From Thuidium tamariscinum (lineage: Eukaryota; Streptophyta; Bryopsida; Hypnales; Thuidiaceae), in contig OX344755.2 in assembly GCA_947034885.2 (NCBI GenBank), positions 20,343,052-20,407,051 on the forward strand: a stretch of 64,000 nucleotides of DNA, written 5' to 3'. Positions 5,440-64,000 of the stretch are shown here, piece after piece. Every line of letters starts with the position of its first letter. Position 1 is the stretch's first letter. Position numbers and translations under genes: made by a program. The notes beneath the pieces were generated by a model that was given only the letters and a program-made list of their open reading frames with translations, was not told the origin of the DNA and ran no database searches.

Positions 5440-6167
5440 AGGTGATTGCAAGAAACACTTGTCCTTTTTTTTGTCCCCTTGACCTTTAGTAGGTAGTTTT
5501 TTGTTCATAACTTTTGCATCTTTTGTTCATTTGACTTGAAACTTCAAATGAAGGTGCCTACAAAAGTTTTACATTCTGTGTAATTTTTTCAATTTTCTTG
5601 AAACTAGTTTACTATTTTAAAATTGCCCCCAATTGGGTGTCTACTTTGGCCATTTTGGGAGTTTTTAGTCCTATTTTTGACCCAAAATGCAAATTTTGAG
5701 CTGAAAATTGGCATGCAAGGACCTCACCTAAAGTTACACAAGACCATGAAGAGATTTTTTGAAAATACTATACTGCTCAACCTCCACATGTCATCAAAGT
5801 GGCTGATTTTGCGCAAGTGTAGAGAATAGAATTAATTTTTTCCAAAGATGAAATTTGTTGGAAAAAAAGGACCTTTACTTGGAAAAAAATGGATTTTTTA
5901 TATTCATTTTTTGAATTTTTTTACTATTTTTACCAAATTAGTAAAAAAAAAGCTATTTTCATTGTATTTTCCATTGTTTATAACATTTACAGAAAAAATT
6001 TCTTAGGTCTGAATTTCAAGAGACATAATACTCTCATTACTCTTCAAATTATCCATATTTTTTTTCAATTTAAAAAAAACTTATTTCAAAGGGTCATAGG
6101 ACTCACAGGATTCACTAATTTTGAGCCATTTTGAGCCAAAACTGGTAAGTGTTTCTTGCAACGACCC
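5440..6167 (+). mobile_element. T1a element, complete (728 bp)
   Basis: Non-autonomous TIR element. Left end AGGTGATTGCAAGAAACAC, right end the inverse, GTGTTTCTTGCAACGACCC. Flanked by AATT at 5436-5439 and 6168-6171. The body is shared with 17788-18530 and 58376-59086 (inverted) and 34295-35051 (direct). No transposase frame. Confidence 0.85.
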
Positions 6168-6416
6168 AATTCCTAAATAATATATTATAAATTGTACACA
6201 ATGAGTAATTGGGGTTCAAAAAATTGAAATTGTGTTGACAAGTCACCATTTCATGAATTCAACCAACATTGCCAATCTGCCATGTGACTTCTGCAATCTT
6301 CATGTGACTAAAAAAATTAATAATTCATTCATTATACTATAATCACATGGGAGTATGGGACACTTTGGGATTGCCAAATGAGCCATGTGTCCATGTAGGG
6401 AATAAAAGAGACACAT
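6168..6416. other. Short unique spacer
   Basis: No gene. Its right end (6395-6416, TGTAGGGAATAAAAGAGACA plus CAT) recurs at 7203-7225 and marks the site into which the next element inserted. Confidence 0.5.
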
Positions 6417-7149
6417 GGGTAAATGCAAGAAACACTTGTACTATTTCCCGTCACCACTTAAGTGCTGATCTATTTTTTAGCCATGACTTTTGCATTTTTG
6501 CTCGAAATGACTCAAGATTTCTAGAGAAGGTACTTATGACTATTATACACCTTACATAATTTTTTCATAATTTTCAAAAATAATTTAATACTAAAATAGT
6601 ACTAGTGATTAAATGTCACAAATGCCAATTTGGAGGTTTTTAGTACTAAGGAGTACCTTTTTTTAATGATTTTGAGATGAAATTTGTATGAGATGGTCTT
6701 CTAGTAGACGTACATCTCTCCACATGAGGAATTTTGAAAAAAGTTATTTCTATGTGGTGTGGAAGTCTACAAAGTGAGCTTTTTTCTGCTTGAATTTTGA
6801 AACATATAAAATATTATTTTGGTGGTTTTTTTGGTTGATGACCATCTCCATAGAGTTGTTGCAAATGGAAATTTTTTATTTTTTGTATTTACTTATTTTT
6901 TCTATTTTTACCGAATTAAAACATGAAGGTATGTATTTTCTTGAGGTTTGGCGCTTTTTAAATTCTCCTACTTAGAGAAATTTTCTATCAATTTCCTTTG
7001 GTGAAAACCTTCATCTTAGAGGTATATACATTATTCGTATTTTTCAAATTTTTTTCAAATTAATTTTCTAATTTTAAAGTACTCCAGAAAAAGTCACGAG
7101 TATTGTAGTAAAACGCAACAAATAGTACAGGTGTTTCTTGCATTCACCC
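6417..7149 (-). mobile_element. T1b element, complete (733 bp)
   Basis: Ends GGGTAAATGCAAGAAACAC and GTGTTTCTTGCATTCACCC, target duplication ACAT at 6413-6416 and 7150-7153. The body is inverted relative to 21382-22113. The neighbouring tandem repeat supplies an unoccupied copy of its target near 7220. Confidence 0.9.
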
Positions 7150-7150
7150 A

Positions 7151-7272
7151 CATTAGTATCTAGAACTAAGACAACAACAGCCTAGCCTAGTAATGTTAGT
7201 TATGTAGGGAATAAAAGAGACACATTAGTATCTAGAACTAAGACAACAACAGCCTAGCCTAGTAATATTAGT
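7151..7272 (+). repeat. 72-bp tandem repeat, two units
   Basis: Units 7151-7200 and 7223-7272 share CATTAGTATCTAGAACTAAG and ACAACAACAGCCTAGCCTAG with one base difference. The repeat period continues left into 6395-6416, across the inserted T1b element, so the duplication predates that insertion. Confidence 0.9.
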
Positions 7273-7831
7273 GCCAATTTGTGGCATTTGGATGACAAAG
7301 AGGTGTTTAGTGGAGAGATTGAAAGAAAATTTTCATCCATATTTTTCTTGTTGACCTTTCATGGAGGGTTATGAAAAAAACCTAATTGAATTTGTAGTAT
7401 TTCTAGTGTTTGTCTTCACATGGATATGAAGCTTGTAAAAAAAATGGATCACAAATTATACTATTTTAGTGTATTTTGGGAAGTTGTTGCTCCTTGTTCT
7501 AAATCTCAAATTTTTCTTAAAAAAAATCTAAATTTCTTGTGAAGTATAAAAGATATGTAACTTCATGTCTAAAAAAATGAAAAAGAAATTTCATACATAT
7601 TTAATTCACAAATGGCAAAAAACAGAAAACTAAGTGATGGGCAATAAACTTGAAATCAATGGTTATAGGTTTGTCCTTTAAAGGCTAGTAAGCATCCAAA
7701 ACATAAAACTATATAATTTTTTCTTTACCGCTTGTAACATTTGTATCTTTCTTTTGCAAAGAAAGAGTTGAACAAAATCTATCCCTATGTTAAATTAATT
7801 ACTAAGTTTTACTATGTATATTTATCTAGAA
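7273..7831. other. No feature seen
   Basis: AT-rich, no recognisable gene or element ends. AGAA at 7828-7831 is the target duplication of the next element. Confidence 0.5.
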
Positions 7832-8591
7832 GGGTGATTGCAAGAAACACTTGTCCTTTTTTTTGTCCCCTTGACCTCCAATAGGTACTTTTTTGCTCAT
7901 AACTGTTGCATCTTTTCTTATTTTGGCTTGAAATTTGTATTGAAGGTGCAAACAAAAGTTTTAGATGTTGAGTAATTTTTTCAGAATTTTTAAAATTATT
8001 TTACTATTTTTAAATTGGCCCCAATTGGGTGTCTACCTTGGCCATTTTGGAGGTTTTTAGTCCTATTTTTTACTCAAAAATCCAAATTTGAAGCCACAAA
8101 TTGGACAAGTTGTAGGTCTACTAACATTACCATGGATGATGATGAGTTTTTTTGAAAATAGTAATATGTCAATTGTGCACATGGGGTCAAAGTGACCTTC
8201 CTTTGTACAAAGGCCATGAAGAGGGAAAAAATTTCCTAGGGGAATTTTTTGTTGCAATATGAGCACAATTTTGTTTAGAAAAATGGATTTTTTTTAAAGA
8301 ATTTTTTGAATTTTTTTTGAATTACTAAAAATGAAAAGGTCCATAGATTCTTTTTCTGCTATTTTTTGCTCACAGTGGCCTGAGTAGTACTTTGTAGCAC
8401 TCTCTAGTACTGCATAGTACTACATAGGACTAAATCGACGGCCTAGATTTGCAGGCGCCCAAAATCATGGGCTGACATTGACAGGCGCAGTGCAGACATG
8501 CAGTACTGATAGGATCGCGTTGGATTGCCAGTCCTACACCAAAAAACTACGTTTTTGAGACAAAAACGTGAAGTGTTTCTTGCAATGACCC
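7832..8591 (+). mobile_element. T1c element, complete (760 bp)
   Basis: Ends GGGTGATTGCAAGAAACAC and GTGTTTCTTGCAATGACCC; target duplication AGAA at 7828-7831 and 8592-8595. The left part is related to T1a, while the right part (8380-8560) is subgroup specific, with a GAGACAAAAACGTGAAG block. Related inverted copies lie at 12138-12891 and 35083-35824. Confidence 0.88.
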
Positions 8592-8629
8592 AGAATCATT
8601 CCTCCTATGGACTATGGTCTCATTTTTGG

Positions 8630-9143: not shown

Positions 9144-9253
9144 TTCTCAGAGTTAGCTCGTCATGGCACCGTACATGACGAGCAGATATGACTTCAAAGC
9201 AAGCAAGCCTATCAAGTAGCTAGCTCGATCACGGCTAGCTTTCCTAACTGCGT

Positions 9254-9667
9254 TCAGCTTCCCCAGCCGTGGGAGAAGCGTCCGCCGTTGCACGAGAACC
9301 CGCCGAAGGTGATCGACCACGGACACACGGCGCCTTCGCACTGGCACGGACCGTTGCCGGCGCCGCCCGTGCCGGAGAACACCTCCAACACGATGTTGGG
9401 CTTGCCCACCGAAGCGAAGGTGCACGAGTAGCGCAGCCCAGCGAAGTCGGCGCCACCGTTGCCGACCTAGAACACGTAACTCTGGCCTTGCGGGAGAATG
9501 CGGGACCCGAAGTCGCCGACGCAGCCCTCGAAGCCGCACGTGACGCCCACTTGCTGGTTCATGTTGTTGGTGAGCACCACGTTCATGGCTTCCGCCTTCT
9601 GGGCGACGAGGACCAGCAGCAAGATCGAGAGGAGGGCAAGGCTGCTCTTGGCGGATCGGGTCGCCAT
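9254..9667 (-). pseudogene. S-protein-homologue-like secreted protein, copy 1 (one in-frame stop)
   Basis: Same 137-codon frame as intact copies 2, 5 and 6, starting at the conserved gccATGgc context at 9667 and ending with GWGS and TGA at 9254-9256. Codon 67 is TAG (9467-9469) where intact copies have CAG (Gln, in YVFQVGNGG). The frame is otherwise open to the end, so decay looks recent. Copy 4 has the identical stop at the same codon. The signal peptide (residues 1-27, ending AEA) is intact. Residue 49 is Cys instead of Arg, giving an odd extra cysteine. A product cut at the stop would lack five of the six usual cysteines. The promoter (TATA at 10308-10316) is class I, the leader intron borders are conserved, and AATAAA lies at 9138. 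It could still be read through or act as RNA; the sequence does not show this. Confidence 0.8.
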
Positions 9668-10307
9668 GGCAATGAACTGGCGGTGATTGAGTTGGGGCTC
9701 GGATCGTTCTGCTGGACACGCACACAGCAAATGCAATCGCATTGAGTTTCAGTCAGGCACGGCGAACTAACTCGGAAGACTCGAAGTGCATTGACCGACT
9801 AACATGTTTCACTACTACCTGTGCATGTACTGTACATGCAGCTACCTGACAGTCGTGCAGAGTAATATTCACAGCACAAGTGTCGCGAGTAGGAATTCGA
9901 TCAACTATACATTCTTCTTATTGGAATAAATAATTTGCAGAATTGAAAGGCATGCACTCCCGACAGTGCATTCAACTACGAATGAGCATCGATCTACACT
10001 ACCGACTGTACAGTATGTAACTACGCACGATTGCAAGAGCTAACAAAACAAATGCACGACATACTATGTATATCGAGTTGCATGATGAGCAATTGAAGAC
10101 AGTCATCAATTGGATCGAGCTACGCAGCTAGTCCAATTGATGCATGCCTGGACACTTCCACAAATAAAGAGACTAGCTGCAAGCGAAGAAAGGCTCGCTC
10201 ACAACGAAGGAAGCTGCTGGAATCAGATGATCGAGAGCGTGACCCTGGATCGAGTTGAGGAGATCTGAGCAGGAGTGATCGAGTGAAGGAGTGTAGAGGG
10301 CGTTGCC

Positions 10308-11412: not shown

Positions 11413-13686
11413 CTTCAATCCCTTCAATTCCTTGACTATATTTATTCCAAAAACGGTCAAAAATTGCCATTTCTGGTTTCAATATCAAGTTATTTTTTGG
11501 AAAACATTTTTCAAGATTTACAACTATAGGATCTTGTAGAGTTGTAGTAAATTGATTTGAGAACATGTAGAAATTTTTTTGGAGTTTTTCACCATATAAA
11601 TTGTAGGATATTAGCATTTAAATGCTCGAAAATAATATTTTTCACGGATAGTTGCTCTTTAGCACACAACAACCATATGAAAAATGGTTCAAAATAGTTG
11701 TGCTTCTTTGGATTCATTGTTGAGGCCAAGTAGGATAGGTGCCTATTTTTTTTTTAATTATTTAGAATTGTATAACATATAGGAAAAACATAATAAGTAG
11801 AAAAAAATAACAAATGATTCAAATTACTAAATTGTTAAGAATTTTTTTAAGGAATTGAGAAATATCAATTTCAATGGTTGCAATGTTGTGTCACAATGCA
11901 CCCCAATTTATTTATTTTTAAAATTTCATTAATTTTTTAAGAAAAAAGTTCATCCCTCAAATCCCCTTGGATTTAAAAATTATTATTAATTAAAATTATT
12001 CCCTCCCTCCCCTCCCCCATCCGACTCGTAAAGTTGTAATTTTGAGAATCCAAGAAAATTTGACAATCAATATGAGACAATTCAAAATCTTATAATCTAT
12101 ATCTTGTATCCTTATCTACTCTTGTATTTGTATCAATGGGTCATTGTAAAATACACTTCATCTTTTTATCTCAAAAACGCAGTTTTTTGGCATAGGATTG
12201 ACAGTCTTATATGATCCTACCAGTACTGTGCATCTGCACTACACTTGTCAATGTTAGCCGTTGATTTTGCACACCTATAAATCTGAGCCATCAATTTAGT
12301 ACAATATAGTACTATGTTGTACTACAGAGTGCTAAAGTACTATTCAAGCTATTGGGAGCAAAAAATAGCAGAAAAGGGGCCTATGACCTTTTCATTTTTA
12401 GTAATTAAAAAAATTAAATTTTTTTTTTTAAGAATATTCATTTTTCTAAACAAAATTTTGCTCATATTGCAACAAAAAATTCCCCTAGGAAATTTTTTCC
12501 CTCTTCATAGCCTTTGTGCCAAAGAAGGTCACTTTGACCCCATGTGCACAATAGACATGTTACTATTTTCATAAAAACTCATCATCAATCCTCAAAATGT
12601 TAGTAGACCTCCAACTTGTCTAATTTGTGGCTTCAAATTCGGATTTTTGAGTCAAAAATAGGACTAAAAACCTCCTAAATGGCCAAGATAGACACCCAAT
12701 TGAAGGCAGTTTAAAAATAATAGAATAATTTTAAGAATTTTGAAAAAATTATGGAATGTGTAAAACCTTTTTATTCACCTTCATTCCAAATTTCAAGTCA
12801 AAAAAACAAAAGGTGCAAAAGTTATGAACAAAAGACTACCTATTGGAGGTCAAGGGATAAAAAAAAGGACAAATGTTTCTTGCAATCATCCCAATACCCA
12901 TGTTTACTATTCACTATTTATACTATATCAAGTATTTATATTTGTATTTGGTACTATATCTTTATTTTGTATTCATATAATATCCATATCTATATTCTAA
13001 ATTTGTATTTGGATGACTCAAATAAAATCTTACAGGGATCAATATCTTATGATTTTTTGAGAAATCAATGGCATTTTAGTGGGGATGAATTTTTTTTTTT
13101 AAATCAATGACCAATGATTTTTTAGATGAAATGATTCAAAGTTTTATACACACCTTTTGGTGTGCCATTTCATCTAAAAATGACACACCAAGAAGTGACT
13201 GCCACTTTTTGATGCATTGCATTGTGTGATGCATTGTAATAAGCAATTTACATCCTCTGATTTTATTTTATTTTTTAAATATTGAAAATTGAGTCAAGAA
13301 AAGGGCTTCAAAGTTTTCTTATAGTAGAAAATGCATAATTGCTTGCAAACAAAAATTCCTCATAACTTTTGACTCATTGATCTAAATGAAATGATTCAAA
13401 GCTTTATACACAAATATATACAAAGAAAATTAATTTCAAATTTTTATCTTTGTAAAAAGTGATTTTTTCCAATCTATTCCAACTGCCTATTTACAAAAGA
13501 AAGAAATATATTAGGTCATAAATTTTGACTCAAGTTTCCAAATGTCTTGATTTTTAGTCCAATTGAAAGACATTCCTTGTCCCCATGTTCAATTAAAATT
13601 TGGGCTTGAAATATGAAAATCTCCACTCACATGTACTTGCCTGAAATTACTATATTGTCAAATTTAATACATTGGTCCTTTAGGGT
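11413..13686 (-). mobile_element. Family B element, interrupted by T1c
   Basis: TIR element in inverse orientation. Right border GGTCCTTTAGGG followed by TTTAA (TTAA at 13687-13690). The left border is decayed (CAATCCCTTCAATTCCTTGAC). It is the inverted paralogue of 52687-53975. T1c (12138-12891) sits inside. No transposase frame. Confidence 0.65.
12138..12891 (-). mobile_element. T1c element inserted in family B (754 bp)
   Basis: Left end GGGTCATTGTAAAATACAC, right end ATGTTTCTTGCAATCATCC. Target duplication CAAT at 12134-12137 and 12892-12895. The inverted paralogous B copy at 52687-53975 lacks the element at the matching place (near 53395), which supports these limits. Confidence 0.85.
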
Positions 13687-16849: not shown

Positions 16850-17699
16850 GGGTGATTGCAAGAAATACTTGTACTATTTGTTGCATTTTATAATAATTAT
16901 CATGACTTTTTCTGGAATACTTTAAAATTAGAAAAATAATTTTTTTTAAATTTAAAAAATATGACTTATATATACACCTTTAAGACAAAGGTACCTATAA
17001 TCCCACAAAAGGAATTGCATTAAAAAATTCTCTAAGTAGGAGAACTTGAAAAGTGTCAAACCTCAAGAAAATACATGCCTTCATGTTTTAATTAGGGAAA
17101 GATAGTAAAGATAAGTGAGTAAAAAAAAAAAAGTGTCCATTTGCAACAACTCTATAGAGATGGTCATTCACAAAAAAAATTGGATTTTTTTCCAATAGTA
17201 AATTATTTTTGAAAATTATGAAAAGAATTAGAAAATGTGTATGATAGTATGAGTACTTTTCCTATTAATCTTGAGCCATTTGAATTTTGAAGCCAAATAC
17301 AAAAGTTATAGCCAAAAAACAAATTAGCAGACATTGTGTGACACACAATAGGACAAATGGCAAATTTTGTTAAAACGGTGATATGCCATTAATTTGGCAA
17401 TTTTTATAGTTTGGACCGCGAGGTCCAAAATCTAAACTTGTCATATATTTTTGAAGTCTATATGCGTTGTAGATGACTAAAATCTATACTAGTCCAAGAT
17501 GTTTCGGACTGCGAGGTCCGAATTGTAAAATACTAAAATTGTCGTAGATTATATAAATCTTCATAAGTCTTAGATGTTTGAAATTCTATACCTATTCTAG
17601 ATGTTAGCTTTTAGTTCGGATTGCACAGTCCGAAAAATGGCATTGTGAATATCGCCATTTTTAAAAAATTTGCTATACAAGTGTTTCTTGCAATCACCC
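16850..17699 (+). mobile_element. T1b element with internal deletion and nested E element
   Basis: Ends GGGTGATTGCAAGAAATAC and GTGTTTCTTGCAATCACCC; flanks AACA and AATA (one mismatch). About 200 bases of the T1b middle are missing relative to 21382-22113. A complete family E element lies at 17357-17676. The inverted paralogue near 49260 lacks the insertion. Confidence 0.8.
17357..17676 (+). mobile_element. Family E element nested in T1b (320 bp)
   Basis: Starts ATGGCAAATTTTGTTAAAAC and ends AAAAAATTTGCTAT. Target duplication ACAA at 17353-17356 and 17677-17680. Inside are perfect inverted pairs such as GGACCGCGAGGTCC and CGGACTGCGAGGTCCG. No coding. Confidence 0.85.
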
Positions 17700-17787
17700 A
17701 ATAGAAAATTTTCAATAGGGTGAAATAAATCTCAATATATTTTAGACTATGATTTTGTAGAGTAATAAGTCTATATACTTGTTGCAA

Positions 17788-18530
17788 GGTCATTGCAAGA
17801 AACACTTACTGGTTTTGTCTCAAAATGGTTCAAAATCTTCAAAATCAATGAATCTTGTAACTCTGTAAGTCCTGTGACTTTTGGAATAAATTTTTTTTAA
17901 ATTGAAAAAAATATGGATAATTTGAAGAGCAATGAAAATATTATGTCTTTTGAAATTCAGACCTAAGAATTTTTTTCTCTAAATGTTATAGACAATGAAA
18001 AATACAATGAAAATAGCTCTTTTTTCACTAATTTGGTAAAAATAGTAAAAAAATTCAAAAAATGAAAATAAAAAATATGTTTTTTCTCCAAGTAAAGGTC
18101 TTTCTTTTCAAACAAATTTCATCTTTGAAAAAAATTAATTTTATTCTCCACACTTGCGCAAAGTCAGCCACTTTGACGACATATAGAGGTTGACCAGTAT
18201 AATATTTTCAAAAAATCTCTTCATGGTCTTGTGTAACTTTAAGTGATGTCCTTACATGCCAATTTTCAGCTCAAAATTTGCATTTTTGGGTCAAAAATAG
18301 GACTAAAAAACCCCAAGATGGCCAAAGTAGACACCCAATTAGGGGCAGTTTAAAAATAGTTAACTAATTTCAAAAAAATGGAAAAAATTACACAAAATGG
18401 AAAACTTTTGTAGGCACCTTCATTTGAAGTTTTAAGTCAAATGAACAAAAGATGAAAAAATTATGAGCAACAAACTACCTCCTAAAGGTCAAGGGGACAA
18501 AAAAAAGGACAAGTGTTTCTTGCAATCAAT
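17788..18530 (-). mobile_element. T1a element (about 740 bp)
   Basis: Left end GGTCATTGCAAGAAACAC, right end AAGTGTTTCTTGCAATCA with the last bases decayed, so no clear target duplication. The body is inverted relative to 5440-6167. Confidence 0.75.
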
Positions 18531-18955
18531 ATGCATTGTATGATTTTCAAAACTTGAATGTGTGGAGTATTTAAAATTTTATTTATAAAATATGGTTTAG
18601 TTGAAAAAGGAAACAAATGTAATGTTTTTTCAATGAAAGGAATAGTATTATAGTAGAGATGGAAAAAGTATATTTTGATAGAAAATTTTAGTCTCTACTC
18701 TTTACAAACAAACAAAATTTAAAATTATTAAATTAAAATTTTTTTCATCAATTTAAAAAATAAAAGGTTCAATCTAGTATGATTAAGAATACAAAATAAT
18801 TAGAATGATTCCAATTTTCTTAAAGTTGTTCCAAACAATATGATAATAATAACAATTACTAAATTAAAAGAATTTATGCATATTTAATCTTTACAAAAAA
18901 TTTAAGATCCAATTTGGTCAATTTTGGTTTCCTACTCCTATTTAAAGATGTATAC
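18531..18955 (-). repeat. Segment of the inverted duplication, no gene
   Basis: Aligns in reverse with 49000-49200 (AGTAGAGATGGAAAAA, ATTTTCAAAACTTGAATGTG). Nothing else seen. Confidence 0.65.
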
Positions 18956-21177: not shown

Positions 21178-21381
21178 GGGTGATTGCAAGAAACACTTAA
21201 AACCTTTTGTCACACCCTAGTTTTTGATTTTTTTTTTGGCCATAACTTTTGTGTTTTAGTTTTAAGTGACTCAAAATTTATAGGGAAGCAATCATAGCTA
21301 TTATGTCTATAATGAATTTTGAATTTCTTTTAAAAATAATTTATTATTTTTAAATAGCCCCAAAAATTTCTCACAATTATA
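21178..21381 (-). mobile_element. T1b element fragment
   Basis: Starts GGGTGATTGCAAGAAACAC and follows the T1b body for about 200 bases, then stops where the complete T1b at 21382 begins. The remaining part is not found on the far side, so it was truncated or deleted. Confidence 0.7.
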
Positions 21382-22113
21382 GGGTGATTGCAAGAAACAC
21401 TTGTCCTATTTGTTGCGTTTTACTACAATACTCATGACTTTTTTTGAAGCACTTTAATATTAAAAAATTAATTTGAAAAAAATTTGAAAAATATGAATAA
21501 TGTATACACCTCTAAGGCTCTAAGATTAAGGTTTTCACCAAAGGAAATTGATAGAAAAATTCTCTAAGTAGGAGAACTTAAAAAGCGCCAAACCTCAAGA
21601 AAATACATACCTTCATGTTTTAATTCGGGAAAATTAATCAAAATAAGTAAATACAAAAAATAAAAAGTATCCATTTGCAAATGGAGATGGTCATTCATCA
21701 AAAAATCATTAAAATAATACTTTATATGTTTCAAAATGCAACCAAAAGGAAGCTCACTTTGTAGACTTCTACACGACATAAAAATAACTTTTTTCAAAGT
21801 CCCTCATGTGGAGAGCTATGAATCTATTAGAAAACCATCTCATCTAAATTTCATCTCAAAATCATTAAAAAAAGGTACTCCTTAGTGACTTAAACCCCTA
21901 AACTACCAAGTGTGACATTCAATCACTAATACCATTTTGAAGTCAAACTATTCTCGAAAATTATAGAAAAATTAAAGAATGTGTATGGTACTTGTAAATA
22001 TCTTTCCTATAAATCTTAAGTCATTTAGAGTCAAAACATAGAAGTTATGGCTAAAAAACAAATCAGCAAACTAAGTGTGATAGAAAATAGGAGAAGTGTT
22101 TTTTGCAATTGCC
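21382..22113 (+). mobile_element. T1b element, complete (732 bp), reference copy
   Basis: Left end GGGTGATTGCAAGAAACAC, right end GTGTTTTTTGCAATTGCCT. Flanks TATA and AGGT do not match, so the target duplication is lost or a deletion abuts it. Body contains CCTATTTGTTGCGTTTTAC and the CTCTAAGTAGGAGAACTT block. Confidence 0.8.
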
Positions 22114-22346
22114 TAGGTGCCTCTAATTAATTTTGATGTACTTACTATGAGCCCTTTTAAGACCTTATTCATTAAAATGAGACAATTTACACATTTTAAG
22201 ACTTCATCCTAAAAAAATTTAGTCATTTATCATGAAGTCGACAATAAGAATCATAAGATGAGATTGCAACCTTTGGACAATTAAAGGTTTTTACATGTAT
22301 TATTATATTAAATTCTCAAATTATCAAATAAACTCAAAATTAAAAA
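22114..22346. other. No feature seen
   Basis: AT-rich spacer without recognisable gene or element ends. Confidence 0.45.
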
Positions 22347-23083
22347 AGGTTCATTGCAAGAAAGACCAACCGATTTATGTAGCGTTTTCCACAGTACTGC
22401 TGAAATTTTCGAGAGTACTATATAATTAGAAAAATAATTTTTAAAAAATGTAAAAAATATGTTTTAGGTATATACCTCTAAGAAAAAGGTAGTACCCTAG
22501 GAAGGAAAAGTGTAGGAAAATTCTCTAAGTAGGAGAACTAGAAAAGTGCAAATTTTCATGAAAATAGGTACTTTGACATTTTAATTTGTAAAAAATAGGA
22601 AAAAGAATTTTAAAAAAAACTAAAAATTGGCAATTGGGGAGAACTTTATGATGAAGAGATTTCACCAAAAGAATGATCTCAAAACCATCTTAAATGTTCA
22701 AAAGTATGCACGCAAGGGAGGCCTGTTCATGCATATGTAGAGGAAAGAGAATAATGATTTTTAAGATTTACTTTGGTAGAAACATGCCTACCTAGTATGG
22801 GAATAGGCCACAAAATTTTTAGCTTTAGATCATTAATTTTGGATGCTCCCCAGTACTAAAAACCCCTAAACCGCAAAGTGTGACAAATTAGCTTAATTGA
22901 AATTTAATTATAAAATAATTTTTGAATTTTTTTGAAAAATAAGGAATTTGATTGTTGTCATGTCAAAAATCTTTAGCCAAAATTTCAAGTTAATATGGTT
23001 CATACTTTAAAAGTTATAATCAATAATAACTCCGTCATTCAAAGTATGACGCAAAATAGTACCGGTCTTTCTTGCAATCACCC
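22347..23083 (+). mobile_element. T1d element, complete (737 bp)
   Basis: Ends AGGTTCATTGCAAGAAAGAC and GTCTTTCTTGCAATCACCC. Target duplication AAAA (22343-22346, 23084-23087), weak evidence because it is low-complexity. Body related to 26722-27442. Confidence 0.8.
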
Positions 23084-25794: not shown

Positions 25795-25989
25795 ACGTAG
25801 TTAGGGAAGCTTTCATCGAGCTACTTGCTTTCAATTGTAGTCGTGCAGTGATCGAGCAGCAGTTGTGCTCGTCACTGTCCAACCAGCTACTTGTGCTGGA
25901 GACATGGATCGAGCGCCATTAATCCAGTGCATATATGTTTCGGTGTCGCTGTTGTTACATGTGAAGAGCTAGCTAGGTAGCTCTGAGAC

Positions 25990-26712: not shown

Positions 26713-28326
26713 CCCTAAAGGGGTCGTTGCAAGAAACACCGTGCAAAAAGTGTAGCATTTTCAATAGTACTTTTTTCCAGGAGTACTTTAAAATTAGAAA
26801 AAAAAGTTTTAAACAAAGTGAAAAATATGTTTTATGTATAAACCTTTAAGAAGAAGGTACCCTAGAAAGGCATAGGAAAAATCTCTAAGTAGGAAATCCA
26901 GAAAAGTGCAAAATCTCATGAAAATTAGTACTTCCACATTTTAATTTGTAAAATATAGGAAAATCAATTTTAAGAAAAACTACAAATTAGCCATTTGAGG
27001 AAAGTTGATTTTGATGAGATTTGACCAAAAGAACGATCTTAGAACCATTATCATTGTTCAGAAATTGCGTGCCATGGAAAAAAAATTGTACTCATGTGGA
27101 GGACATAAAAAAATATATTTTTAGATTTTTATTTAGAATTTGTAGGTTTTACACCTATGCAAATAGACCATGAAAGTTTCATCTTTAAATCATTAAATTT
27201 AGACACTGCAAACGTAATGGTAACCATAAACGTATTTATGTGACAACTCAACGAAAATGTTTTTTAAATATAAAATGATTTTTTTAATTTCTGAAAAATA
27301 AGGGATCTGATAAACTTCAAGTTAGGTATGTTCAATAAAAATTTCATGTTCATTGGACTTAATCTCCAAAAGTTATAGTGGAAAACAAAAAAGTGGTTTG
27401 CAGTGTAACGTGAAATAGGACCGGTGTTTCTTGCAATGACCCAAAGGACCATTGTTTCTTCGGGGGACAAATGCAATTTTGGGAGGTACCTACGGGCTGA
27501 ATTTTTGTCCTAATTTTTTGAAACTTTTTTTGGAGATAGAAAAATTGAATATCTTTGTGGGGATATAATTTTTTTCCAATCGGTGCCCGGGAACAAAAGT
27601 TATGCCCAAATAAGCTCAAAACAGGGGACGACAGGCAGTTGAGGCAACAAAGTTTTTTTCTTATATATTATATTTTTGTCTATCTAGGAAGCTTTGATTC
27701 ATTTTATTTGGATTTGTTATGAGAAAGTTATAGACATTCTTGTTTTTCGGGCAATTAGAGCATTTTCTTAAAAAAAATAACTTGTAGGATTTATTTCTGG
27801 ATGCAATTTTTGCAATTTTTCAAAAAAACAAATTTTTCATGTTTTATTTTACTTGCTAGAACAATCCCACCATTAGGATTAGTGCATTTTAATTCCATCT
27901 AAAAGATATTAATATTTTAGATTTTCCTTCTATCTCGTACCCACTTCTACTTAACATTTTTTTAAGAATGAAAATTAAGTTTTTTTGAATTTCTTTTTCC
28001 TAGATTCTCAACTCAATTTTGTACTATAAATAATTAAAGCTCAAAACTCTTTAGTGTAAATTTTTTAAGTTAAAAATGTTCAAAGTCAAAAAATCCAATC
28101 CTGCAATGTGCTAAAAAACTTGTTTTTCCTACTTTAAATGCAAGTATCTTGCAATCTATCTAGTCAAAAATTTTGAAATTTTTTCCACACTGTCTTAGAC
28201 TAGAGAGGTATAGGACCCTACGGTTAGATGTGAAAAAAAATTAATTAAAATTTTTTTTACTCTTTGCTATAGAATTGGCAGTTTTTAGTGTTTTGGAGTA
28301 GAAAACAGGGCTTGGTCCTTTAGGGT
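26713..28326 (+). mobile_element. Family B element, interrupted by T1d in its left end
   Basis: TTAA (26709-26712), then CCCCTAAAG, then T1d, then GGACCATTG... to GGTCCTTTAGGGT and TTAA at 28327-28330. Removing the insert (721 bp plus 4) leaves about 889 bp, in line with 62730-63653. Interior shares CTTGCAATCTA and ATAGGACCCTACGGTTA-type blocks with the other B copies. No transposase. Confidence 0.75.
26722..27442 (+). mobile_element. T1d element inside the end of family B (721 bp)
   Basis: Ends GGGTCGTTGCAAGAAACAC and GTGTTTCTTGCAATGACCC. Target duplication AAAG at 26718-26721 and 27443-27446. Excising it restores the family B end TTAACCCCTAAAGGACCA, an independent confirmation. Confidence 0.93.
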
Positions 28327-28835: not shown

Positions 28836-30409
28836 GGGTCATTTCAAGAAACACTTACCACTTTTGGAGCACTTTGCAAAATTGATTCTTATTTAATGCT
28901 ATAACTTTTGATTGATGAATTCAATGTTGAAAACAAAACAAAATTATTTTCAAAGTTTTTGATTGCAATCATATTTTATATTTTCCAAAAATTTTAAAAA
29001 ATCATTTGATATTTAAAAGATATTTTTGTTAGAGTATCACACTTTGAAGATTAGGATTTTTTTAATACTAAATTGAGTGGTTTAAATTAATTTTTTTTAG
29101 TTGAAATTTTTGTGGTATATTTTTATAGTAAGTAGACATGTCTCTACCAAAGGTCATCTAAAAAAACATTATTTTATAAGGGTCATTGCAAGAAACACCG
29201 GTCCTATTTCGCAACGTGCAACATGAACCACTTTTATGTTTTCCACTATAACTTTTGGAGATTAAGTCCAATGAACATGAAATTTTTAGTGAACATACCT
29301 AACTTGAAGTTTATTAGATCCCTTTTTTTCAGAAATTAAAAAAAACCATTTTATATTTAAAAAACATTTTTGTTGAGCTGTCACAAAATTACGTTTATGG
29401 TTATCATTACGTTCGTAGTGTCTAAATTTAATGATTTGAAGACGAAACTTTCATGGTCTATTTGCATAGGTGTAAAACCTATAAATTCCAAATAAAAATC
29501 TGAAAATATGTTTTTTTATGCCCTCCACATGAGTACAAATTTTTTCCCGTGGCACGCAATTTTTGAACATTGATGATGGTTCTAAGATTGTTCTTTTGGT
29601 CAAATCTCTTGAAAATCAACTTTCCTCAAATGGACAATTTTTAGTTTTTCTTAAAATTGATTTTCCAATTTTTTATAATTTAAAATGTAGAAGTACTAAT
29701 TTTCATGAGATTTTGCACTTTTCTGGATTTCCTACTTAGAGATTCTTCCTATGCCTTTCTTTTTTAGGGTACCTTCTTCTTAAAGGTTTATACATGAAAC
29801 ATATTTTTCACTTTTTTTAAAACTTGTTTTTCTAATTTTAAAGTACTCCTGGAAAAAAAAAGACTAAGTTTGAAAACGCTCACTTTTTGTACGGTGTTTC
29901 TTGCAACGACCCATAACCTCTACAGTCTACATTAGTGCAAATAGGCTTTGCTTGCACGCACACTTCTAAATTATATTAGAAATAGTTTTGAATTCATTTT
30001 TTTAGTCAAACTTCATCTCTAAGAAGTCTTCTCAAATGGCCAATTTTTTGTTTTTTTCAAAATTGTTTTTCCTATCTTTTATAAATTAAAAATGTCAATG
30101 TATGTATTTTCTTTCCTAAAATTCAATGTCTAAGATAAAGTCCAAGAAAATACATTTTTGCAATCACATGATAGTATAAAAAATCCAAATCTTAAAAATG
30201 TAACATGTTAACAAAAATAACTTTTAAATATAAAATGATTTTTTAATTTTTTGAAAGATATAGAATATGATTACAATAAAAAACTCTTGAAATAGTTTTT
30301 TTAATTTTAGACATTGAATTCATTATTCATCTATCAAAAGTTACAACATTGAACAAGAATCAATTTTGCAAAGTACTACAAAAGTGGTTAGTATTTCTTA
30401 AAATGACCA
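28836..30409. mobile_element. T1e element with long inverted repeats, interrupted by T1d
   Basis: Left end GGGTCATTTCAAGAAACAC, right end GTATTTCTTAAAATGACCA. Flanks TCTT (28832-28835) and TGTT (30410-30413), one mismatch. Unlike the others the inverted similarity continues well over 200 bases inward (ACCACTTTTG, TTTGCAAAATTGATTCTT on both arms). T1d occupies 29180-29912. Confidence 0.8.
29180..29912 (-). mobile_element. T1d element nested in T1e (733 bp)
   Basis: Ends GGGTCATTGCAAGAAACACC and GGTGTTTCTTGCAACGACCC. Target duplication ATAA at 29176-29179 and 29913-29916. Body is inverted relative to 26722-27442 and closely similar. Confidence 0.92.
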
Positions 30410-34294: not shown

Positions 34295-35051
34295 GGGTTG
34301 TTGCAAGAAACACTTGTCCTATTTGAATGTCCTCTAGGCTTTAGGTTTGATGGGTGATTTTTTGCTCATAACTTTTGCATAGTATCTCCATTTTATATTT
34401 AATTTGAAATGAAGGTATACATAGTAGTTGTTGACATTGTGTAGATTTTTGAAATTTTTAAAAATTAGCTTACTAATTTTGAACTACCCTAGATTAGATG
34501 TCTACCTTGACTATTTTGAAGAGTTAAATTAGCTTTATTTCCAACCTAATATTGCAAATTTGAAGGTAAAAATTAGGATACAAAGACTTCTACTATAGTT
34601 ATACAAGCTTGTAAGAATATTTTCTAAAATTAATATGTAGAAGTATCTACCTTCCACATATGCTCAAAGTATTCTTTTGAAGTATACTTGTAGAGAATAC
34701 AAAATATTTTTCTTGAAGATGAAAAATTGAAAATGGGCAAGAAGAATCACCTTCAAATTAGAAAAGATGGATTTTTTTTAGTTTATATTTTTGAATTTTT
34801 TTATCATTTTCTAAAAATCAAATTATAAAGTAGCTACTTTCTTGCATTTTTCAATATTGTTTGAGAGAGCATAACTCTTAGAGATAAATTTTTCCAAGTT
34901 AGAATTTTCACCTACTATTTAGAGTGTTTTCCAAATTATCCATATTTTATTTTATTAAAAAAATAATAATTCCAAAAGTCACAGTACTATAGTAGTAGTT
35001 AGGCCATTTTGAGAAAAGAACACAGTTACTAAGTATTTTTTGCAACAACCC
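34295..35051 (+). mobile_element. T1a element, complete (757 bp)
   Basis: Left end GGGTTGTTGCAAGAAACAC, right end AGTATTTTTTGCAACAACCC. Target duplication ATTA at 34291-34294 and 35052-35055. The D' copy near 15860 is unoccupied (TAAATTAATATTATTGG). Confidence 0.92.
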
Positions 35052-35082: not shown

Positions 35083-35824
35083 GGATCATTGCAAGAAATA
35101 CTTTTTGTTTTTACCTCAAAAATATAGTTTTTTGGTATAGGAATAGCAGTCGTGTGCAATCCTGCTAGTATTATGCATTTCCACTACAATAATTGCACCT
35201 ATCAATGTTAGTTGTTGATTTCAAGCACCTGTAAATTTGGGCCGTTGATTCAGTATTATTTAGTACTACAAAGTGCTACAAAATACTATTGAGGCCATTG
35301 GGAGCAAAAAATAGCAAAAAAGAGGTTTGTAAACCTCGTCATTTTTAGAAATTAAAAAAAAATTCATTTTTCTAAACAAAATTGTTCTCACATTGCAATA
35401 AAAAGTTCCTCTAGGAATTTTTTGCCCTCTTTATAGTCTTTGTGCAACGAAAGGTCACTTTGACCCCATGTGCACAATAGACATGTTATTATTTTCATGA
35501 AAACTCATTGCCAATCCTTAAAATTTTAGTAGACCTCCAATTTGTCTAATTTGTGGCTTCAAATTCATATTTTGAGTCAAAAATAGGACTAAAAACCTCC
35601 AAAATGGCCAAGGTAGACAACCAATCGGGGGCAATTTAAAAATAATTAACTAATTAACTAATTTCTTAAAAATTGAAAAAATTACTGAATATCTAAAACT
35701 TTTGTATGCACCTTCATTCCAAATTTCAAGCCTATAGGATAAAAGATGCAAAAGTTATGAACAAAAAACTACCTGTTGGAGGTCAAGGGGATAAAAAAAA
35801 GACAAGTGTTTTTGGCAATCACTC
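35083..35824 (-). mobile_element. T1c element, complete (742 bp)
   Basis: Left end GGATCATTGCAAGAAATAC, right end AGTGTTTTTGGCAATCACTC. Target duplication GGTA at 35079-35082 and 35825-35828. The D' copy near 15880 reads straight through (GATGTAGTAGTCAC). Confidence 0.9.
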
Positions 35825-35992: not shown

Positions 35993-36759
35993 GGGCAATT
36001 GCATGAAAGACTTGTACTATTTTCCGTCACATGTCTCATGCTGATCTGTTTTTTGCCCATAACTTTTTCATTTTCGCTCGAAATGACTCAAGATTTCTAG
36101 AGAAGGTATTCATGACTATAATACATATTACATAATTTTTTCATAATTTTCAAAAATAGTTTAATATAAAAATAGTACTAGTGATTGAATGTCACATATG
36201 ACAATTTGGAGGGTTTTAGTACTAAGGATCACCTTTTTTTTAATGATTTTGAGATGAAATTTGGATGAGATGGTCTTCTAGTAGAATTATAGCTTTCTAC
36301 AAAAGGATTTTTAAAAATAGTTGATTTTATGTGGTGTGGAAGTCTACAAAGTGAGCTTCTTTTTGCTTGAATTTTGAAACATATAAAATGTTATTTTGGT
36401 GAATTTTTTGGTGAATGACCATCTCTATAAAGTTGTTGCAAATTTCGACTTTTGATTTTTTTATTTAATTATTTTTACTATTTTCTCCTAATTAAAACAT
36501 GAAGGTATCACTACAAAAAAACCCTGTCCTAAATGATTGCGCGAAGTGACTGCAAAATGACTAGATGTCCGGAACAACTAAAGAATGACTGCAAATTCTG
36601 TAATTGCACTAAGGTTGCACTGTTTAAGTGTTTAAGTCATTTTTCAGTCATTTTGAACGACTTGCGGATGAAGCAATGATGAAGTGTGACATTTACTGCA
36701 ACTATTCATTCAATATGACATTGACAATATTAAAGGGAAGTGGGAGGCATCCAATAGGG

Positions 36760-37560
36760 GTATTGAAGTCATTAACAGTGACTGCACATGACTATTGTGT
36801 GACTCCAAAATGACTTAAATGTTTTTTTTTAGCCAAATCAAGATTTTTGTAAAAAAAATGAATAGGACAATTTGCTGACGTGGACTTTAGTCATTTTTGT
36901 ATGACTACAATGTGACTGTACATCACTATTGTGTGACTACAAAATGACTTAAATGTTTTTTTAAGCCAAATCAAGATTTTTTTGTAGAAAAAATGGATAG
37001 GACAATTTGCTGACGTGGACTTTAGTCTTTTTTTATGACTACAACCCCACTGTCTATGACTGTAGTGTGACTCCAAAATGACTTAAATGTTTTTTTAAAC
37101 CAAATCAAGATTTTTTTTGTAGAAAAAATGGAAAGGACAATTTGTTGACGTGGACTTTAGTCTTTTTTTATGACTACAACGCCACTGTCTATGACTATAG
37201 TGTGACTCCAAAATGACTTCAATGTTTTTTTAAACCAAATCAAGATTTTTTTGTAGAAAAAATGGATAGGACAATTTGTTGACATGGACTTTAGTCTTTT
37301 GTTATGACTACAACGCCACTGTCTATGACTATAGTGTGACTCCAAAATGACTTCAATGTTTTTTAAACCAAATCAAGATTTTTTTGTAGAAAAAATGGAT
37401 AGGACAATTTGTTGACGTGGACTTTAGTCTTTTTTTATGACTACAACGCCACTGTCTATGACTATTGTGTGACTCCAAAATGACTTCAATGTTTTTTTAA
37501 GCCAAATCAAGATTTTTTTGTAGAAAAAGAAAATAGGACAATTTGTTGAAAAAAGTGTTT
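36760..37560 (+). repeat. 134-bp tandem array inside the CACTA element, about 5.5 units
   Basis: The anchor GACGTGGACTTTAGTC recurs at 36877, 37012, 37147, 37281 and 37414, spacing 133-135. Each unit also carries TGACTACAA, TGTGACTCCAAAATGACTT and CCAAATCAAGATTTTT. The array multiplies the subterminal TGACT motifs on the left side. Confidence 0.93.
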
Positions 37561-39864
37561 AATGCTAAAATGCTTTAAAAAAATGCACTATGTTTCTTGC
37601 AAGGGCCCTTTAGAATCTTCCAACACTCACACTCTAATATCCTTCTTAAGCAAATAAGTTATCTTCTTGGGTACATAACTCCTATAGTATATGGCCCTAA
37701 TTACAATCACTTATAAACAAATGCACTTTAGTCCAATCTCAAGGGATGTAATTTGTTTAAATGTAGAAAATTCTTATATCATTTTTAACAAGAAATTCAT
37801 AAATGTAATTACATACATGAAATTAATATTCTTTGAGGACTATTAAAGTATTTAAAAACTAGTTATATGAGTTTTTCTAATATATGTATCATAGAATAAG
37901 GTATCCAATATTTTAGTTTTTTTTTAAAATTTAATATTAACTAGGTGGGATTTCTTGTAGTCAAATTTTTAAAATTATTCTTAGGTGTTTCAATTCTTCA
38001 TATACATTGAATTTTTATTGATAAGTACATTCTCCAAAATTTTCTACATTTAATTTTTTATAATTTGGTCTTTCTTAAACTTGGTCTTTATAAATTCAAT
38101 ATAATTTTACAAAAGCAGTTGTTTTAATACCAATGACTTTTGTACACATACACACTATTTTATATATATATATATAAATACAAGAGTTGCATACCTAAGG
38201 TTATTTTTTATTCTTTCTAATTTTTTATTCTTGATTTTTTCCTTAAGTAGATAACTCTTAGGAGATTTTGTATATTATATGCAATAAAGTAAGTTTTTAA
38301 TCCTATATTAATTTTTTAATAAACTCATTAGGAAAAATTTCAACCCTAAAAGAGGCTATTAAGAATTCATTTTGAGCACCTCCATGGTGCAATTCCAAAA
38401 GAAAAAATGAAAAAATTGAGAAAGAAATTAAAATATTTTTAAAAATATTTATCAATAATCAATCTCATGTAGTGTTGACATGGGACTAGTAATACCATGT
38501 TAGATTTGAAATTTCAAAAAATTAAGAAAATATATATGTATATATATGTGTACGTATATATATGTATGTATATATGTAAAAATATGTATATATAGATTTG
38601 CACCATTGGGGTGCAAAACTTGCAGCTTCTTTTAGAACCAGAATTATTCCTAATGGTAAATTCAACTTATAATTTTCAACTTTGATTGATAATAATCTTA
38701 GATTTCTATTGTTGAAAACTTTCACCTCAAATAATATATAATATGACTTTCAAGAAGATTGAGAAATGAAGGGAAATGACTCATATTGACATGTAGTCCA
38801 ACTCAAATATTTATTGAAAATACATTTTGTTGACCATTGCATCAATATTCAAGAAGTAGAGGGTCTAAAGTCTTTATTACATGTGGTTTGCTAACAATAT
38901 AAATACATGGAGTGCTTCCCCTAGGTTTATCTTATTCAGTTCTTCTTAAAGATCTTCTTCTAGAATACAAGACTTCTTCTGTTTTATAATTTTATTGTGA
39001 AATGATGCATTGTTGGTGGTCTTTTTCTTTATTCGTGTATAATATTTTTTTTCTTTAGGGTCCATTTCTATGATTTATTTAAATTCCTATCAATATGCCA
39101 CCAATACTTCTAGAAATGTGTGCCATTGTCATTGCACTAGTTTTGAACACTTCGTATAATTTACATTTGAAATATAAAAAATATCAATAAATATACACTA
39201 AGGTCTTTAGAAAGGACCCAATAGTAATTATTAAGTCACATTTTTTCACTCTGGTTCTACTACAAAATGACTTCGTGTGACTGCGAAACAACTATTCAAA
39301 AGTCTAGTACTCTTTCTTTGTCAATTCTTTTCAAACCTTTTAGCAAACTTGTCTATAATTTTTGAATTAAGGCTCAAAATCCAAAACGAATTTTTGGAGG
39401 TGAAAATGACAATGATCTTCTAACTTTCATCAGTTCAAAGTTTTAAAAAAAAATTTCATATACTATGCCTCAATGAGGTTCAAAACATTATTTGTAATGC
39501 AATTCCTGCGTTTTACATATCCCACAAGCTTTGTCTTGCCAACTACTATCCTACTTCTATAAAAGGCTTGACATTTCTTCTATTCATACTCACACACTAA
39601 AATACATGGAATAATGCATGGTATATGGTGTATGGTGTATTCTATATGGTGTATGGCATATGGTGTATTGTATTGTATGAATTGTGTATGGTGTATTGTA
39701 TGTTGTATATTGTGCAATGCAAAATTATTGTGTATGGTTTATTGTTGCAAAATTATGAATGTATTCATATATGACTGTGGAGTGACTACTTCCCATATAA
39801 TTATTAATATATTTTTTTTGTACACATTGCCACCAAAAAAAATTGCATTTAACATCTGTATAGT

Positions 39865-40170
39865 GACCTGCAAAATGACTAAATAATGACTTCACAATGA
39901 CTTCATAGTGACTCTAACATCAACAACTTACGGATTATTCATAATACCAAAATGACTACATAATGACTTCATAGTGACTTCACAGTGACTCTGACGTGGA
40001 TGTCCATGTCATCAATACTCAAACTACATTACAACTGCAAAATGACTAAATAATGACTTCATAGTGACTTCCACATGACTCTGACGTGGATGTCCACGTC
40101 AACAGTACTCGAACTTGCAAATGACTCCATAGTGACTGCAAAGTGACTCTGAAATTTGCTGACGTCATGC
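39865..40170 (+). repeat. Right subterminal repeats of the CACTA element
   Basis: Repeats of AAAATGACTAAATAATGACT, CATAGTGACTTC and GACTCTGACGTGGATGTCCA, twice to three times, with the same TGACT core as the left array. Confidence 0.85.
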
Positions 40171-40650
40171 TACTTCTCCAAAATTTTGGAGTGGAATGGG
40201 CAACTGCCCACAATTTTTGAACAATTGCCCGAAAATCACAAGTGCCACGTAGACCTTGTCATTCCTTTTTTATCCAAGTGTGTGATAATACAGTAGCAGT
40301 CACTACAGGTCGTGACTTGTCTACAATGACTTCTAGGGACCAAGTCGCAGTGCAGTCGTTTTTCGCCTAAATGACTGCCATGTAGTCATTTATCGCAGTC
40401 ATTTAAACCCTGCTTTTTTTGTAGTGTATGTATTTTCTTGAGGTTTGGCACTTTTCAAGTTCTCCTACTTAGAAAATTTTCCTATATAATTCCTTCTGTG
40501 AGTTCCTTTGTCTCAAAGATGTTTACGTAAGTTGTATTCTAAAAAAAATTTAAAAATTAATTTTCTAATTTAATAGTACTCCAGAAAAAATCAAGAGTAC
40601 TATTGCAAAACGCAACAAATAGTATAGGTCTTTCGTGCAATCACCCTCCT

Positions 40651-44150: not shown

Positions 44151-44879
44151 GAGTGATTGCAAGAAACACTTGTCCTATTTTGTGTCACATGTTGCATTCT
44201 GATTTGTTTTCTAGCCATAACTTTTGTGTTTTAGCTCCTATTGACTCAAGATTTGTAGGGAAGGTACTCATAATCATCATAAACCTTCCATAATTTTTTC
44301 ATAATTTTCAAAAACACTTTACTATCCAAAAATAGACCCCAATTGGATGTCACACTTGGTAGTTTAGGGTTTTTTAATACTTCAATCTTGAGCTATACCT
44401 TTTTTTGATGATTTTAACATGAAATTTGGATGAAATGGTCTTCTAATAGACTTCTAGCTTTTCAGGGAAGGATTTTCTTAAAAAGTTAATTTTGTGAGTT
44501 GTGGAGGTCTACAAAGTGAGCTCCCTTCTGCTTGTATTTTGAAACATAAAAAATATTATTTTGGTGGGTTTTCTTGTGAATGACCATCTCCATAAAGTTT
44601 TTGCAAATGTCCACTTTTTATTTTTTGAAAACATATATTTTTACTATTTTTCCCTAATTAAAACATGAAAATATGTATTTTCTAGAGGTTTGGCACTTTT
44701 CAAGTTCTCCTACTTAGAGAATTTTTCTATCCATTTTTTTCGGTGAAAACCTTCATCTTAGAGGTATATACACTATTCATATTTTTTTTTAAATTTAAAA
44801 TTAATTTTCTAATTTTAAAGTAGTCCCGAAAAAATCAGCCAAACGCATCAAATAGGACAGGTGTTTCTTGCAATCTCCC
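44151..44879 (-). mobile_element. T1b element, complete (729 bp)
   Basis: Ends GAGTGATTGCAAGAAACAC and GTGTTTCTTGCAATCTCCC. Target duplication AATT at 44147-44150 and 44880-44883. Confidence 0.92.
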
Positions 44880-59850: not shown

Positions 59851-59889
59851 ATTTATTTTTTTAATTTAATTTAATTTTTTATTATGTTG

Positions 59890-60835: not shown

Positions 60836-60839
60836 TTAA

Positions 60840-62042: not shown

Positions 62043-62046
62043 TTAA

Positions 62047-62725: not shown

Positions 62726-62729
62726 TTAA

Positions 62730-63653
62730 CCCCTAAAGGACCAACATGCCTTTTTTGGCAACATAACTATTTCGGGTAGGTACGTGTGACTAGAGATTTC
62801 CATATTATGGGACCAAATTTTAATAGAAGGTGTGGACGAGGAATATCTTTAAAGCCTGACAATTTTCGTGACTTTTGACTGCGTGGTTAAAAAGTTATCA
62901 CATTATATGTTGTTTATTTCTCAACTCGGGCAGTTTGGGCAGATCAGAAAAAATCACTTTTTTCGAAAATAAAAATTTGAAATTGGTTTTATATATTTAT
63001 ATATATGTGGAAAGCTTTGAATCATTCCATTTGGACTAATGAGTCAAAAGTTATGAAGAGTTTTAGTTTGCGGGTAGTTATAGATCCCTTCTCTAAAAAA
63101 AACTTCGAAGTCCTTTATTTTACTCAATTTTCAATATTTTTGGAAAAAAATAAAAACATTGGGTGTAGGTTGTTTATTACAACATTTGAACCATTGGGAT
63201 TGGCAAGTTTCAATTTCACAAATAAATTTTTAACAATTTAGTATTTTGAATCATTCTCTACTTCTTTCTACTTACTATTTCTTTTGTACATGTTGTACAA
63301 TTCCAAATGATTTGAAAATTTTCAAGAATGTAGCCAACTTGAATTGAAGAATGAATCCAAAGAGTAACAACCATTTTGAAAAAAAATTCATACAAATGTG
63401 GCCCTCTGAATCACAGCTGCCCGGATTTTCGCAGTGGTAAAAAAAGGACTTTTGCAACTTCAAACACTAATATCTTGCAATCTACATGGCAAAACTTTCT
63501 GAATTTTTTTTTACATATTCTTGAACTAGTAAAATAAAAGATCCTACGGTTACATTATTCCAAAAATATTTTTTTTATAAAATTTGATAGTTGTCCTAGA
63601 AATGACAGTTTTGGAGTAGTTTTGGTGAAAGCATAGTCAAAGAACTTTAGGGG
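62730..63653 (+). mobile_element. Family B element, complete reference copy (924 bp)
   Basis: TTAA at 62726-62729 and 63654-63657. Left end CCCCTAAAGGACCAACATGC, right end AACTTTAGGGG. TTAA target with CCCC...GGGG ends recalls piggyBac-type elements. No transposase frame. Confidence 0.85.
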
Positions 63654-63661
63654 TTAAGAAG

Positions 63662-63780
63662 TATATATTAGCTTTAATTTTTTAAAATTCATATATTATT
63701 TTTTTAATTTTAAAGCACATTGAAAAATTCCAAGTATTGTGAAATACAACAAAATCAATAGATATTTCTTGCAATTACAT
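63662..63780 (-). mobile_element. T1b end fragment
   Basis: Right-hand T1b body (TTTTAAAGCACATTGAAAAA, GTGAAATACAACAAAAT) ending in ATATTTCTTGCAATTACAT, a decayed T1 end. Confidence 0.6.
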
Positions 63781-63854
63781 GTTTTTAAAAAAAAGTGGTA
63801 TCCTAAACATATCAACTCATACCTTCTATAGTTATATCTTAAATACCTAGGTTC

Positions 63855-64000
63855 TGGGTGAGTTCAAGAAAGACCGACCGGTTTCTGTACACTTTGGCCA
63901 TAGTACTCCTGATTTTTCGGGAGTACTTTAAAAATAGAAAAACAATTTTTAAAAATTATGAAAAATATGCTTAGTGTATGTTTTTTGAAGAAGAAGATAT
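63855..64000 (+). mobile_element. T1d element, cut by the window edge
   Basis: GGGTGAGTTCAAGAAAGACC followed by the T1d body (TAGTACTCCTGATTTTTCGG, GAGTACTTTAAAAATAGAAA) as at 22347. Confidence 0.75.

Follow-up and report, generated by a model that had tools for sequence, protein, structure and literature searches.

Introduction

Plant miniature inverted-repeat transposable elements (MITEs) are classified chiefly into five superfamilies (PMC12550479), and Sola and Ginger are also counted among the plant terminal inverted repeat (TIR) transposons (PMC10741241). Sola elements have a 4-bp target site duplication (TSD) and TIRs of 11-1,124 bp; they occur in the moss Physcomitrella and are reportedly uncommon in flowering plants (PMC10741241). 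Sola1 is tabulated for Physcomitrella and also for Capsicum (PMC9033089), and the 4-bp TSDs of Sola2 are AT-rich (PMC3627910). Curated Sola1 elements of bivalves have a mean length of 5,445 bp (PMC10294476), and the giant Sola1 element of Ectocarpus, Sola1-1_Ec32, measures 21.5 kb (PMC12477816). The stretch of DNA analysed here (the window) comprises 64,000 nucleotides of Thuidium tamariscinum (assembly GCA_947034885.2, contig OX344755.2, positions 20,343,052 to 20,407,051), and the subject of this study is T1, an element of approximately 0.7 kb with inverted 19-bp ends, GGGTNATTGCAAGAAACAC, that is present there in many copies. An earlier note on the window had described T1 as a TIR family with 4-bp duplications and had named Sola1 and Sola2 as one candidate assignment.

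The length of the TSD differs between the established groups: it is TA in Tc1/mariner elements, 3 bp in PIF/Harbinger and in CACTA elements, 8 bp in hAT elements and approximately 9-11 bp in Mutator elements. Ginger elements have a 4-bp TSD and ends that start with TGT.

Results

T1 ends are abundant in the window and in the genome

The T1 end GGGTNATTGCAAGAAACAC was matched 33 times in the window with up to three mismatches, compared to a mean of 0.08 and a maximum of 2 in dinucleotide shuffles, a result that bore out the claim that the copies share one terminal repeat. The genome search for this end that the earlier note had recommended was then run on 363 Mb in 19 contigs. At up to two mismatches it returned 22,432 T1 ends (11,188 + 11,244), whereas the reversed-pattern control returned 11 (4 + 7); T1 therefore has the high copy number that is expected of a MITE. 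At the same threshold there were 24 ends in the window, approximately six times the density of the genome. Since 22 of the 28 ends of 14 window elements lay within two mismatches, the number of genome copies can be put at roughly 14,000 (about 10 Mb, or about 3%), a figure extrapolated from a window that is perhaps atypical.

T1 insertion is associated with a 4-bp target site duplication

TSDs were scored in adjacent inverted T1 ends less than 1.3 kb apart (n = 51) from the window, 20 stretches of 10 kb and other loci, after the removal of five duplicate loci. Most of the sampled loci come from the first 8.4 Mb of contig C1, where they were picked because they contain an exact T1 end; the choice was non-random, but the flanks were not selected on. 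The duplication was exactly 4 bp in 40 of the 51 pairs; the remainder had duplications of 0 bp (five pairs), 1 bp (four), 2 bp (one) and 12 bp (one, in an AT repeat), and lengths of 3 bp and of 5-11 bp were absent. There were 32 different 4-mers among the 41 TSDs, which were AT-rich, as are their surroundings. In the window, a perfect 4-bp TSD was present in 12 of the 14 two-ended elements, the exceptions being the copies at 16850 and 21382. These results firmly establish a T1 TSD of 4 bp without a fixed target.

All ten of the 4-bp TSDs given in the earlier note were present, although the copy placed there at 26722 begins at 26721, and the duplication length, a different value of which would have overturned the proposal, held up in the wider sample. 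When compared with the values generally given for these families, the free 4-bp TSD also supported the exclusion of Tc1/mariner, PIF/Harbinger, hAT and Mutator. By the same comparison T1 lacks the CACTA ends and the 3-bp TSD of CACTA elements, since it has GGGT ends and a TSD of 4 bp. It shares the 4-bp TSD of Sola elements, with exactly this length in 40 of the 51 pairs.

T1 copies are short, non-coding and fall into two related groups

The 41 TSD-bounded copies had a median length of 734 bp (37 copies of 676-764 bp, one of 804 bp and three of 1,008-1,037 bp) and, in keeping with a MITE, were short elements with TIRs and a TSD. Across their 82 ends, positions 1-19 were conserved at 88-100%, except for position 5 (44%, free) and position 6 (80%), and the TTT at positions 28-30 was conserved at 85-91%. 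Conservation at positions 31-70, with left and right ends pooled, was mostly below 60%; left and right ends diverge further in.

BLAST linkage separated the 41 copies into groups of 23 and 17 and one single copy. The group alignments comprised 22 and 16 copies, leaving out a 1,027-bp copy from group 1, a 1,008-bp copy from group 2 and the single copy of 1,037 bp, and had a mean column identity of 0.76 and 0.75, respectively. When the consensus interiors of the two groups were compared, with 31 bp trimmed from each end, the z score was 15.1 in one orientation and 0.5 in the other. Because the interiors align in this way, the two main body groups are, as judged from their consensus sequences, diverged branches of one lineage with one ancestor. 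The earlier description of at least four body types consequently needs softening: distinct groups were seen, but the two main groups are homologous inside. The longest open stretches in the group consensuses were 76 and 128 codons, both crossing ambiguous bases, and there was no long intact open reading frame (ORF); neither consensus has coding capacity, as is usual for a MITE. The 79-base left-end consensus of group 2 was matched exactly at 25 or more places in the genome.

Nested copies and the long-TIR form T1e

The long-TIR form described in the earlier note, T1e, was found to recur with pairs of near-constant length. Its end was present 171 times in the genome (91 + 80) at up to one mismatch, and among 100 listed T1e ends many paired at 1,074-1,081 bp, usually at approximately 1,079 bp. 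A T1e copy at locus L019 (2666-3469) had a 264-bp TIR at 95%, and a 1.8-kb T1e end pair was flanked by the TSD AACT. The flanks of the window T1e copy, taken without the nested T1 and one ATAA, aligned continuously to the L019 copy (79%); nested T1 insertions are consistent with a clean target duplication.

The TCCT pair that opens at 35993 closes only at 40646, its two halves being separated by a CACTA-type element (36509-40426, with CACTACAAAAAA ends and the TSD TAT) that was inserted inside T1. Without this insert, the split copy aligned over its full length with the 733-bp copy at 6417 (84%). The CACTA-type element itself contains a T1-like end at 37590-37608. At locus L023, paired tandem T1 ends approximately 20 bp apart were observed at 1411-1453 and 3991-4030, as though one T1 copy had inserted next to the terminus of a second.

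Table 1. Positions of T1 copies and other features. Positions are those of the window unless a contig is given.
Feature	Position	Strand	Remarks
T1 fragment end, 3 mismatches	4637..4655	+	T1 body similarity downstream
T1 MITE, 728 bp	5440..6167		TSD AATT
T1 MITE, 733 bp	6417..7149		TSD ACAT
T1 MITE, 760 bp	7832..8591		TSD AGAA
T1 MITE, 754 bp	12138..12891		TSD CAAT
T1 copy, 850 bp	16850..17699		Imperfect TSD AACA/AATA
T1 MITE, 745 bp	17787..18531		TSD TGCA; missing from the earlier note's list
T1 fragment end	21178..21196	+	No TSD partner found
T1 copy, 733 bp	21382..22114		Flanks TATA/AGGT, without TSD
T1 MITE, 736 bp	22348..23083		TSD AAAA; missing from the earlier note's list
T1 MITE, 722 bp	26721..27442		TSD AAAG
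T1e long-TIR copy	28836..30409		Imperfect TSD TCTT/TGTT; contains T1 29180-29912
T1 MITE, 733 bp, nested in T1e	29180..29912		TSD ATAA
T1 MITE, 757 bp	34295..35051		TSD ATTA
T1 MITE, 742 bp	35083..35824		TSD GGTA
T1 MITE split by CACTA-type element 36509-40426	35993..40646		TSD TCCT; 733 bp minus insert and one TAT
T1 MITE, 729 bp	44151..44879		TSD AATT
T1 end, 3 mismatches, near window edge	63856..63874	+	T1 body similarity downstream
GC-rich repeated genes, small, probably secreted protein	9153-9752, 19570-19992, 25278-25922, 32546-33158, 47743-48237, 55165-55614
DUF7869 elements, approximately 19 kb	C2:19294865-19314071, C2:19330601-19350142, C4:2002246-2021096, C10:13611634-13630111, others		L031, L032

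Search for an autonomous partner

In agreement with the earlier statement that no autonomous partner lies in the window, no transposase was seen there when Pfam was run on 4 of the 22 listed ORFs and a DUF7869 profile search gave no match in the window. The suggested check for longer T1 members with a transposase found none among the ends listed, and relaxed end pairing in the sampled sequence gave only one good long match, the 4,654-bp copy that is split by the CACTA-type element. Two T1e end pairs were rejected as they had no TSD: a 15.1-kb pair of exact ends on contig C4 (TGCA/CATA) and a 1.5-kb pair on contig C3 (CATT/ACAA).

The first-look candidates for five transposase families numbered 853 for DUF7869, 714 for hAT, 627 for CACTA, 331 for PIF/Harbinger and 70 for MULE. 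For DUF7869, 150 of the 853 candidates were scored and listed above the cut-off, many of them with open frames of approximately 950-1,080 codons (950-1,076 among those listed), and an end was read at 14 loci. Four of these loci had the TIR AAGGCCTTATTCGTTAAAATGAGAC and ten had ends of the AACAC...TTGCACTT type.

The TIR AAGGCCTTATTCGTTAAAATGAGAC belongs to elements that have a 974-amino-acid DUF7869 ORF; it was present in 76 + 67 exact copies genome-wide, and pairs recurred approximately 17.5-22.8 kb apart among 100 ends listed. The elements of approximately 19 kb had identical 25-bp TIRs, 4-bp TSDs and the 974-amino-acid ORF near one end, and all four of the 18.5-19.5-kb elements that were read had a 4-bp TSD (TGTC, CACT, TTCT and GACT). 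Contig C11, possibly a sex chromosome, carries many of the elements of this size.

The second end type was found at L029, L030, L034-L036 and L043-L047. L034 carries a smaller DUF7869 element of approximately 5.2 kb with a perfect 24-bp TIR (ends at 3317-3340 and 8515-8538) and flanks of TACG/TACC, a 3- or 4-bp match; it sits in another repeat, related copies of which are present without the insert in L029 and L033. No matching 5' end was found within the sequence examined at L029, L030, L035 and L036. At L043-L047 the 3' ends were read, and all five were of the L029/L034 type and none was a T1 end. DUF7869 is accordingly treated here as a candidate 4-bp-TSD transposase of this genome, in which the domain would have the catalytic role.

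One locus, L029, was considered as an autonomous T1 element, since it has a 1,069-amino-acid DUF7869 ORF and a T1 end approximately 320 bp past the stop codon. It was rejected because a different terminus, 23 bp further inward, closes its relatives at L030, L035 and L036; L029 seems to be a DUF7869 element inside a T1 end. A phmmer comparison of the L029 protein with PDB sequences gave no matches up to an E value of 10.

Other features of the window and the genome

Copies of a GC-rich, repeated gene for a small, probably secreted protein are scattered through the T1-rich window (Table 1). One scanned copy was weakly similar to the Pfam family Self-incomp_S1 (E = 0.003), under the cut-off. The region is AT-rich, and the genome as a whole combines AT-rich sequence with GC-rich genes. 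The sampled genome loci also encode proteins that we take to be WRKY-like and Pumilio-like. Together with the Self-incomp_S1-like protein and the CACTACAAAAAA-type CACTA ends, these proteins indicate a plant; the base composition of the genes and the DUF7869/Sola connection would suit a moss. Many of the listed open frames for hAT-type proteins were of exactly 1,061 or 1,118 codons, and this identity in length suggests recent bursts of hAT-type elements.

Discussion

The TSD of T1 is an unusual one for a plant MITE. T1 is very probably a single large family of non-coding MITEs with a 4-bp TSD, whose members are presumably moved in trans. The elements, of approximately 730 bp, would present distinct left and right ends that have in common the 19-bp TIR and the conserved TTT at positions 28-30; a transposase supplied in trans would recognise the TIR, and movement would be by cut-and-paste via a 4-bp staggered cut.

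Several results weigh against this interpretation. Ten of the 51 adjacent pairs matched over 0-2 bp only and for 57 listed ends (with some overlap, as part of L012 recurs in L007) no partner with a matching TSD lay within 1.3 kb, so fragments are common, and the sample itself was drawn mostly by exact T1 ends on a single 8.4-Mb portion of C1. No T1-ended element encoding a transposase was found among the ends listed or in the sampled sequence. Among 100 listed of the 171 T1e ends, the sole inward pair 2-30 kb apart was the 15.1-kb pair, which has no TSD; the 100 canonical ends listed (of 1,537) included ten pairs at 721-734 bp, and none that faced inward over a distance of 2-30 kb was seen. 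At the 14 DUF7869 loci where an end was read, none had the T1 end as its own terminus.

The alternatives differ greatly in probability. The AT-rich region, and the one TSD match among 41 that sits in an AT repeat, would be in keeping with T1 ends being a chance or low-complexity repeat with coincidental duplications, but that explanation has next to no probability, having already been refuted by the shuffle and reversed-pattern controls and by the occurrence of exact 4-bp duplications in 40 of 51 pairs with none of 3 or 5-11 bp. It is also unlikely, though far less so, that the autonomous partner is extinct here and that the T1 copies are relics. The mean column identities of the group alignments (0.76 and 0.75) and the lack of a long element among the T1 ends listed favour extinction; the exact genome matches to the group 2 left-end consensus (at least 25) and the near-constant pair lengths of T1e and of the ten canonical pairs, among the ends listed, do not, and suggest fairly recent bursts instead.

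There is a similarly low probability that T1 belongs to an unrecognised superfamily with a transposase outside Pfam. None of the five families searched could be tied to T1, and we know of no plant superfamily that combines GGGT ends with a 4-bp target of free sequence; this argument is one from absence of evidence, with few loci read. Somewhat better placed, while still doubtful, is the proposal that the mobiliser of T1 is a DUF7869-type transposase from an unsampled lineage, which would make T1 the MITE of DUF7869 elements with 4-bp TSDs. DUF7869 led the five families in the number of first-look candidates, the TSDs of the elements read with 974-amino-acid ORFs were perfect in four of four cases, and the 14 loci with an end read represent a small part of the 853 candidates. 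All 14 nevertheless carry one of the two other end types, and the T1 end at L029, which three relatives lack, is situated beyond the terminus of the DUF7869 element, at a distance of 23 bp.

For the preferred reading of T1 as a MITE family moved in trans, a Sola-like or DUF7869-type mobiliser is the leading candidate, as yet unproven. That the transposase is Sola-like, of the 4-bp-TSD kind, with DUF7869 maybe its abundant local example, is a possibility we place a little short of even; the presence in the same genome of DUF7869 elements with 4-bp TSDs is an indirect point in its favour. More tentatively, a group with 4-bp TSDs that belongs to none of the five canonical plant MITE superfamilies may be a major component of this genome, in which DUF7869 would be the transposase of the 19-kb and mid-sized elements and T1, at the copy number estimated above, the MITE arm of that superfamily or of a sister superfamily.

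A family of the size of T1 with a 4-bp TSD would break the TSD rules of the five superfamilies on which most plant MITE annotation is based, and it suggests that an under-studied plant lineage harbours an abundant group of transposases. A tangible starting point is offered by the DUF7869 elements, in which a domain of unknown function accompanies perfect TIRs and 4-bp TSDs. The literature searched as text gave no match for the T1 core TTGCAAGAAACAC (repeat databases were outside that search), for the name DUF7869, or for MITE, bryophyte and Sola together.

When compared with described systems, T1 shares the 4-bp TSD and the presence of TIRs with Sola1 and Sola2, T1 being known from non-coding copies alone. 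Ginger elements also have a 4-bp TSD, but their ends start with TGT and those of T1 with GGGT. The DUF7869 elements are found in the same genome as T1 and have a 4-bp TSD (in the group with the 974-amino-acid ORF); they differ in that they have other TIRs, are approximately 19 or 5.2 kb in length and are coding. The larger of them are in the same size class as Sola1-1_Ec32, a comparison by size alone. Like the Tourist, Stowaway, hAT, Mutator and CACTA types of plant MITE, T1 is short, non-coding and present in many copies with TIRs and a TSD, and these elements too are thought to be moved in trans; unlike them, it has a free 4-base TSD and GGGT ends.

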